Positions 34,705 through 46,073 of a stretch of DNA of 64,000 bases are shown piece by piece. The translations under genes and the position numbers were made by a program. This DNA is from an uncultured Clostridia bacterium (lineage in GTDB: Bacteria; Bacillota; Clostridia; Oscillospirales; Acutalibacteraceae): NCBI GenBank assembly GCA_946187325.1, contig CAMHQC010000002.1, positions 1-64,000 on the forward strand, in the 5' to 3' direction. The first letter of the stretch is position 1. Every line of letters starts with the position of its first letter. Under the pieces are notes generated by a model that had not been told where the DNA came from, made no database searches, and was given only the letters and a program-made list of their open reading frames with translations.

Positions 34705-34729
34705 ACATACCCGGCAAGTTCGGGTATTT
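34705..34729 (+). terminator. mazF terminator, copy 1
   Basis: ATACCCG, loop GCAAGTT, CGGGTAT then TT. A second copy with one base change lies at 34995-35019; the two flank an inserted module. Confidence 0.75.
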
Positions 34730-34739
34730 CAGCTTGTCG

Positions 34740-34995
34740 AAAAACTATGTTTGAGAAGGCGACATTGCCCTCTCCTTGAGGAGAGGGTGTCACGCTACTG
34801 CGTGACGGGTGAGGTGTAGGGAACTTGTCAAAATCTTTGATTTTGGCAACAAGTTGCCGTTATTATTGACTTTTTACGTCATTTCGTTACCCAAAACAAG
34901 TTTTGGACGAAATGCTACACCTCATCAGTCACCTTCGGTGACAGCTTCTCCTCAAGGAGAAGCCGAGTCAAAAAAGAACTTTTTCTACAGTCAGA
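34740..34995. mobile_element. Repeat module with a 214-bp insert, between duplicated terminators
   Basis: The outer module reads AAAAACTATGTTTGAGAAG on the left and CCGAGTCAAAAAAGAAC...CTACAGTCAGA on the right. The same module without the middle part lies at 45976-46028. The insert (about 34759-34972) has hairpin ends: CCCTCTCCTTGAGGAGAGGG and CTTCTCCTCAAGGAGAAG, with GGTGAGGTGTAG and CTACACCTCA as further inverted arms, and is bounded by GAGAAG on both sides. This is a typical non-coding repeat of gut Firmicutes. No gene is present in 34703-35052. Confidence 0.75.
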
Positions 34996-35019
34996 CATAC
35001 CCGACAAGTTCGGGTATTT
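34995..35019 (+). terminator. mazF terminator, copy 2
   Basis: Same 25-base sequence as 34705-34729 with one change, followed by a better T-tract (ATTTTTC). Confidence 0.75.
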
Positions 35020-45363: not shown

Positions 45364-45393
45364 AAGACCGGCTCAATAAACTGAGTCGGTCTT
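45364..45393 (+). terminator. LCP gene terminator, copy 1
   Basis: AAGACCGGCTCA, loop, TGAGTCGGTCTT. The surrounding 46 bases (45365-45410) recur at 46028-46073. Confidence 0.8.
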
Positions 45394-45442
45394 AGTTGTA
45401 GGTAATGTAGCCGAGTTATTTTTGAAATTTAACATTCGAGCC

Positions 45443-45721
45443 TAGGGTAACAGAAGTAATCTGAACCTCGGTTTTGTCGGACAGATTTCCGCCTACCCTT
45501 TGTTAAAATGCTCGGAAACCCGTCAGGGTTTCCTGTGCTTTTGCCGCGGCTAGACGAAAATCTGCCTCGGCAAAACTCCTTTGGACTTTAAACGGTTGAA
45601 ATTTTAGGCGATTTGCGGTGCGGAGAATGTTAGCAGGCTGGCGCCTGCTGACGTTCGACAAGCCGTAAAGAGTCAAAATCACTCCGTTTAAAGCGTGGTT
45701 CGGATTGCTTCTGTTACCCTA
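45443..45721. mobile_element. MITE-like palindromic element, copy 2 (279 bp)
   Basis: Same ends and interior as 33538-33717, including TAGGGTAACAGAAGTAATC and GATTGCTTCTGTTACCCTA. An extra ~99 bases lie between the left arm and the CAAAACTCC core, bounded by CCTCGG on both sides, so either this copy gained an insert or the first lost one. The insert contains its own short hairpin (GGAAACCCGTCAGGGTTTCC). Confidence 0.85.
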
Positions 45722-45975
45722 ATATAAAATGAACAGTTATGAACAGTTAAATTTTTTTATCTGTTCATAAAAAAGTCAGTATTTATCAGGCTTTATAGTA
45801 CATTTGAACAGATGAACAGTAAATATATATATATTATAATTTTTATAATAAAATATATATTTTTATTTTTTAAATTAATATTATATATAGCTGAACACAT
45901 CCATCTGTAACAGAAGGCAGTTTTCAGCGGTTACTTACCTCAACATAGCAGGGGATTGGGATGGCGGTGAGAATT
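45722..45975. other. AT-rich intergenic block, no gene
   Basis: The stretch holds repeated GAACAGTTATGAACAGTT and a related ATGAACAGTAAAT, a long ATATAT tract, and no usable open frame on either strand. It looks like decayed or repeat-derived sequence. Confidence 0.6.
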
Positions 45976-46073
45976 AAAAAACTATGTTTGAGAAGCCGAG
46001 TCAAAAAAGAACTTTTTCTACAGTCAGAGACCGGCTCAATAAACAGAGTCGGTCTTAGTTGTAGGTAATGTAG
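45976..46073. repeat. Empty form of the repeat module plus second terminator copy
   Basis: AAAAACTATGTTTGAGAAG is joined directly to CCGAGTCAAAAAAGAAC...CTACAGTCAGA (45976-46028), equal to the module at 34740-34995 minus its 214-bp insert. It abuts a second copy of the LCP terminator region (46028-46073) that differs from 45365-45410 by one base. Confidence 0.85.

Follow-up and report, generated by a model that had tools for sequence, protein, structure and literature searches.

How did two loci on one contig of an uncultured Clostridia bacterium (family Acutalibacteraceae; GCA_946187325.1, CAMHQC010000002.1, positions 1 to 64,000, hereafter the window) come to carry the same short module beside two copies of a terminator, when the terminator differs between the loci? 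An initial annotation made from the letters of this 64,000-nucleotide stretch had described a shared module directly adjoining the second copy of the local terminator, with the first copy upstream, and suggested an element that targets intrinsic terminators or their 3' ends and leaves long target duplications. A direct-repeat analysis of the window identified this arrangement at both loci, with repeats of 25 nt (96% identical) at locus 1 and 46 nt (98% identical) at locus 2. The reading that we favor, with a probability of roughly 87%, is that the module is a miniature inverted-repeat transposable element (MITE) of the IS1182 family of insertion sequences (ISs), that an IS1182 transposase supplied in trans moves it into hairpins, mostly those of intrinsic terminators, and that the whole hairpin, from foot to foot and without a fixed length, ends up on both sides of it.

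At locus 1, the element is 265 bp long, starts with CAGCTTGTCGAAAAACTATGTTTGAGAAG, ends with CTACAGTCAG, and contains no transposase gene. The hairpin on either side of it has the sequence ACATACCCGRCAAGTTCGGGTATTT, in which R is G in the left copy and A in the right copy. The exact module sequences occurred twice in the window compared with 0.00–0.03 occurrences expected by chance, and the module at loci 1 and 2 is beyond a chance match. When the genome from which the window comes (the own genome) was searched for the module end beside a duplicated terminator, as had been proposed with the initial annotation, the arrangement was found at loci 1 and 2; the only other copy was degenerate and partial, on contig C14, and had no clear hairpin at its end.

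The window flanks of locus 1 were joined with one hairpin and searched across the genus for an empty site. The sister species G051 matched the joined query continuously over all 531 bases at 93% identity, and the sole large difference between the window and G051 was a 290-bp gap, corresponding to the 265-bp element and the 25-bp hairpin. The right hairpin copy was identical to the hairpin of the empty site, and the left copy differed by one loop base. A reciprocal case was found in G051, which carries a 323-bp version of the same MITE (L117) in another terminator that is empty in the own genome; filled and empty sites are thus seen in both directions between the two sister species. L117 is flanked by two copies of a hairpin with the arms AAAGCGGTCAG and CTGACCGCTT, and the own genome has one, identical to the right copy. 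Approximately 70 bases left of this hairpin are identical in the two species; on the right, divergence spans approximately 100 AT-rich bases, and identity resumes beyond them. An IS1182 element flanked by two copies of a 19-bp hairpin is present in two Bacillus subtilis plasmids, and the joined 619-bp empty site was found in five sister plasmids, with identities of 100% in four and 99.5% in the fifth. A pair of Enterococcus raffinosus megaplasmids showed the same empty/filled pattern at 97.5% identity. These four empty/filled comparisons are direct evidence, at the level of sequence, that one hairpin becomes two upon insertion.

As its ends are common to full-length copies encoding IS1182-family transposases, the window element is, by sequence, a MITE of an IS1182-family IS. 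The right-end pattern CTTTTTCTACAG[AT]C[AT]G was present in 29 of the 161 genomes of the genus, with 27 copies in G150 and ten in G146, and a reversed control pattern was almost absent. The regions around these right ends are elements of 200–440 bp whose terminal inverted repeats are imperfect (roughly C[AT]GNNTGTNGAAAAA); most have on their flanks two near-identical hairpins that vary from site to site. In several genomes (G068, G074, and G021), the same right end has a PF13751 transposase just upstream of it, and the window element has ends of the pattern common to L118, L113, and L153. The layout expected of an IS1182 element, terminal inverted repeats around a single transposase gene in about 1.3–1.95 kb, was found in L118 (1578 bp), L153 (1603 bp), and others; both L118 and L153 have the terminal repeats and duplicated hairpins on their flanks. 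The transposases of these partners scored above the cut-offs of PF13751 and PF05598, and those of four copies gave 415–471 bits with the IS1182 equivalog model NF033551 (cut-off of 270).

The breadth of the pattern was assessed in a survey of IS1182 elements in one genome per species, which returned 80 loci. Element ends were set by the terminal-repeat pattern, independent of hairpins. A repeat of at least 15 bp adjoined both ends in 32 of 45 autonomous and 14 of 21 MITE copies in many genera (46/66 together), a count slightly biased toward true pairs because, when more than one pair of ends fitted, the one giving the longest repeat was taken. When left flanks were paired with the right flanks of other elements, such repeats were found in 0/1980 and 0/420 pairings (0/2400), the longest being 10 bp. 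The duplicated repeat spanned one whole hairpin between its feet and was a different one at every site; no sequence was common to the target hairpins of different sites. Duplications were 19–37 bp long in the tested set and up to 64 bp in L199, with a stem of 30 bp. Among the MITE copies scored as failures, several (L099, L103, L111, L115, and L117) have stems that match or are similar, with altered loops or slight alterations of the stem. In a strict hairpin test, hairpins were present at both ends of 34/45 autonomous and 16/21 MITE copies, compared with 9/1236 and 2/552 control positions further out, and they adjoined the terminal repeats at an offset of 0–1 in nearly all copies. The long and local duplication that the initial annotation had claimed was borne out by dozens of insertions in other genomes, each with a different hairpin, as well as by the empty sites.

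Most targets (about 90%) are terminator-like, and some are other hairpins, as a T- or A-tract stood at the hairpin foot in 41 of 46 cases compared with 32 of 165 control positions. The proposal that terminators are targeted held, with the refinement that what is recognized and doubled is the whole hairpin and not the 3' end of the terminator, as the T-tract stays beside one hairpin copy only. The hosts included Oscillospiraceae, Lachnospiraceae, Acetobacterium, Alkalithermobacter, Youngiibacter, Secundilactobacillus, Streptococcus varani, Oceanobacillus, Chloroflexota metagenome-assembled genomes (MAGs), and Burkholderia dolosa. That the duplication is one whole hairpin across Bacillota, Chloroflexota, and a Burkholderia points to a choice of target based on structure. 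In the transposase tree, the hairpin-duplicating copies fell into one 52-row group, opposite ISSau3 and three copies from the genus without the pattern (support of 100/100); the tree was rooted at its midpoint, which makes the clade status provisional, and IS1272 was not among its rows.

At locus 2, the module immediately adjoins the second repeat copy, and the first copy lies 566 bp upstream. Of the claim that the pattern of locus 1 recurs here, the adjacency of module and duplicated terminator stood, and a clean insertion was not observed: the left terminal repeat of the module is absent and its right end intact, another MITE is nested at the locus, and the duplication runs past the hairpin. 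Locus 2 is best read as a degraded, rearranged relic of a second insertion with the other MITE nested within it. It fits a module adjoining a duplicated terminator and alone would not prove the case. The proposed comparison with relatives having a single terminator, which yielded the one-hairpin empty site of G051 for locus 1, found no empty site for locus 2; relatives have different terminators there, and the sister-species contigs did not resolve the region. The unrelated nested MITE has inverted ends of approximately 46 nt that are 80% complementary. The own genome has copies of it on contigs C1 and C6 at 99–100% identity, and many congeners carry homologues. The features of both loci are listed in Table 1.

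Table 1. Features of the two loci, with positions in the window
Feature	Position	Strand	Basis
Left copy of the duplicated terminator hairpin, locus 1	34705..34729		Direct repeat and empty-site alignment; one loop base unlike the right copy
Non-autonomous IS1182-family element (MITE), 265 bp	34730..34994	+	Missing from sister species G051
Left terminal inverted repeat CAGCTTGTCGAAAAA	34730..34744	+	Match to element ends in congeners
Right terminal inverted repeat TTTTTCTACAGTCAG	34980..34994	+	Pattern common to IS1182 transposase-encoding copies
Right copy of the duplicated terminator hairpin, locus 1, followed by the T-tract	34995..35019		Direct repeat; no difference from the empty site
First copy of the duplicated terminator with 17 bases past its hairpin, locus 2	45365..45410		Direct repeat; similarity extension
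Nested MITE of locus 2 (unrelated), flanked by TA on each side; long inverted ends	45443..45722		Inverted repeat; own-genome copies and congener homologues
Truncated copy of the same IS1182 MITE, without the left terminal repeat, right end intact	45977..46027	+	Exact module match and right-end pattern
Second terminator copy, locus 2	46028..46073		Direct repeat

Other accounts of a module between two terminators were weighed against these data. Homologous recombination or tandem duplication of a terminator, with the module as a passenger, would suit locus 2, where the duplication extends past the hairpin and the element is without its left end. However, clean sites have duplications ending at the hairpin feet and both terminal repeats, and closely related plasmids differ by the element and the hairpin only; this account is refuted for locus 1, and we judge it very improbable overall. 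Slightly less probable again is that the hairpins travel with the element, a terminator being carried at each end and both being brought to the new site. The close fit of hairpins to terminal repeats in nearly all copies is what such an element would show, but the hairpin differs per site and equals the single hairpin of the empty site, and left flanks never match the right flanks of other copies. The empty sites refute it.

Known elements with a similar habit were also considered: group IIC introns insert at terminators, and site-specific integrases leave long identical attachment sites. A group IIC intron has its own RNA structure and a reverse transcriptase; the window element has just 265 bp, and there was no Rfam intron match in the window. 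Moreover, introns do not duplicate their target, and a different sequence is duplicated at each insertion, unlike the fixed attachment sites of integrases. An integrase element or intron is refuted by the partners, which encode a DDE transposase, and its probability is minimal. The least credible account is that two similar terminators happen to flank the module. Terminators within a genus can be alike, and the motif CCGGCTC...GAGCCGG recurs; nevertheless, the mismatched flank pairs, which gave none of the repeats of at least 15 bp seen in 46/66 true pairs, and the single hairpin at empty sites refute such a coincidence.

As judged from the comparisons, the data establish insertion, duplication of the whole hairpin, a variable hairpin sequence and length, and ends common to transposase-encoding copies. 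On linear DNA, a DDE transposase normally makes a short, fixed stagger set by the geometry of the enzyme. The simplest account of the MITE, which would be moved by an IS1182 transposase supplied in trans, is a different one. Its target would be an extruded cruciform, or else a hairpin formed by single-stranded DNA, and insertion would occur at the hairpin foot, with the two 3' ends of the element joined to the 5' feet on the two strands. The two 5' feet would meet at a four-way junction whatever the arm length, so that a fixed spacing of active sites would serve any hairpin. Repair of the gaps would copy each single-stranded hairpin, giving two complete copies, and may rewrite the loop of one copy, as L117 and L115 hint. 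A DDE transposase of this kind, whose target duplication is set by DNA secondary structure, with joining at the cruciform junction, duplication of the exact hairpin (19–64 bp), possible rewriting of loops, and a reusable target, is put forward tentatively, at slightly less than even odds; recognition of the cruciform and joining at both 5' feet are what we infer from insertion products. The duplicated hairpin would be reusable because the target is doubled and not consumed. Termination should survive, since the hairpin copy next to the T-tract is unchanged. Whole-hairpin duplication also suggests that terminators are safe landing sites, still present after insertion.

The same element and duplication could also arise if the transposase reads the inverted repeat in linear DNA, two subunits binding the arms and cutting at their outer edges with a long stagger, with no cruciform or single-stranded hairpin. 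In all good cases the two arms of the target form an inverted repeat, and the data show the product only, both of which agree with this account. Duplications of 19–64 bp are, however, hard for one rigid complex to span, and arms with no sequence common between sites offer no shared binding motif. We consider reading of linear DNA unlikely, although it is the alternative to be taken most seriously.

Several observations weigh against whole-hairpin duplication by an IS1182 transposase acting through a cruciform. No IS1182 transposase was found in the own genome, and its copies therefore look immobile now; in G051, only short PF13751 matches were found. The duplication at locus 2 is not clean from foot to foot, as weaker similarity of the two copies extends approximately 26 bases past the 46. 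About ten autonomous copies have unlike hairpins at their two ends (L160, L166, L169, L172, L189, L202, L212, L219, L225, and L230), and some ISEfa7 copies on Enterococcus faecium plasmids (L280, L282, and L284–L287), which have similar ends, have a hairpin on the right side only. In addition, insertion products fit a cruciform and other ways of reading an inverted repeat alike. The unlike pairs may be due to recombination between two copies, which would give exactly such pairs and has been offered to explain the hybrid repeats of another IS (PMC1525189), or to repeats at which MAG contigs were misassembled. They also look as if the two ends had entered different hairpins. No clear hairpin was seen at L143. 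The genus has another IS1182-like clade (L049, L058, L064, L068, L158, and others), with GGGGCTGTCGCA-like ends, and no hairpins or duplicated repeats were seen alongside its elements. Ends such as AAAGGGGCTGTC in this clade jointly resemble a terminator stem, and the clade could be of a hairpin-replacing kind.

Differences between the two hairpin copies fall mostly in the loops. In L117 (213–592, compared with L290), approximately five of eight loop bases are changed in one copy and the stem is intact, and in L115 the copies have matching stems and an inverted loop. Where the ancestral hairpin is known (locus 1 and L117), the changed copy is the left one, away from the T-tract, in two of two cases. 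Two cases do not make a rule, and this is a hint; stems may instead be under selection, or the copy lacking the T-tract may be under relaxed selection. In L094, L095, L097, L121, and L134, the hairpin at the right end of one element directly adjoins the end of another, as though the doubled hairpin had served as a target a second time; the second elements examined were apparently truncated at their far ends. The target hairpin also touches the transposase gene in places: the TGA stop codon of the L118 transposase is completed by the first base of the hairpin (L118 1125–2720), and the L150 transposase frame reads through the hairpin copy at the right end (L150 1543–3129).

The transposases of the autonomous partners belong to the IS1182 family (NF033551; PF13751 and PF05598), whereas the window copies have no transposase. 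For the family, repeats as long as about 60 bp are reportedly listed in ISfinder, and individual cases may be recorded there. Some family members target palindromes, according to a review as cited in PMC5678879 and PMC4923244. The non-autonomous ISMac2 MITEs of Methanosarcina acetivorans are likewise derivatives of the family, but their direct repeats are tabulated as 4 or 0 and are not whole hairpins (PMC3852290). REP-targeting ISs such as ISPpu9, ISPsy8, and ISRm22 share a palindromic target with the window element. Theirs is a conserved repeat that they recognize and cut internally, and the repeats left behind are fixed and short, at 2–6 bp (PMC1525189), whereas the targets of window-type elements share no sequence and the repeats are 19–64 bp long, so that the window element is not of the REP-targeting kind.

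The closest comparison is with IS1272/TnSha1 of staphylococci, an IS1182-family element that targets hairpins of any sequence, often terminators, and is reported to delete or replace the hairpin with no target duplication (PMC4923244 and PMC5678879). With IS1272 the hairpin is reportedly lost; at locus 1 and in 46/66 tested copies it is doubled, and the window element does not show the IS1272-type outcome of a lost target hairpin and no duplication. ISSau3 lies outside the hairpin-duplicating group in the transposase tree. The IS1182 family, its palindrome preference, and hairpin deletion by IS1272 are thus already known. A broad subgroup that, with its MITE derivatives, duplicates whole hairpins as a rule appears to be undescribed; phrase searches of the literature, which are weak evidence of absence, returned no report of whole-hairpin duplication or of the pathway b described below in nature. 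A simple rule of hairpin, element ends, and hairpin can be used to find and delimit such ISs and MITEs in genomes. Wan et al. drew whole-hairpin duplication as a theoretical pathway b and proposed the opposite for IS1272, an attack on the 3' feet with loss of the hairpin (PMC5678879, Fig 13). What was a theoretical alternative there is matched here by sequence evidence for pathway b, or for a process with the same product, as the rule in a large subgroup, and the contrast with IS1272 within one family makes it testable which foot is joined.
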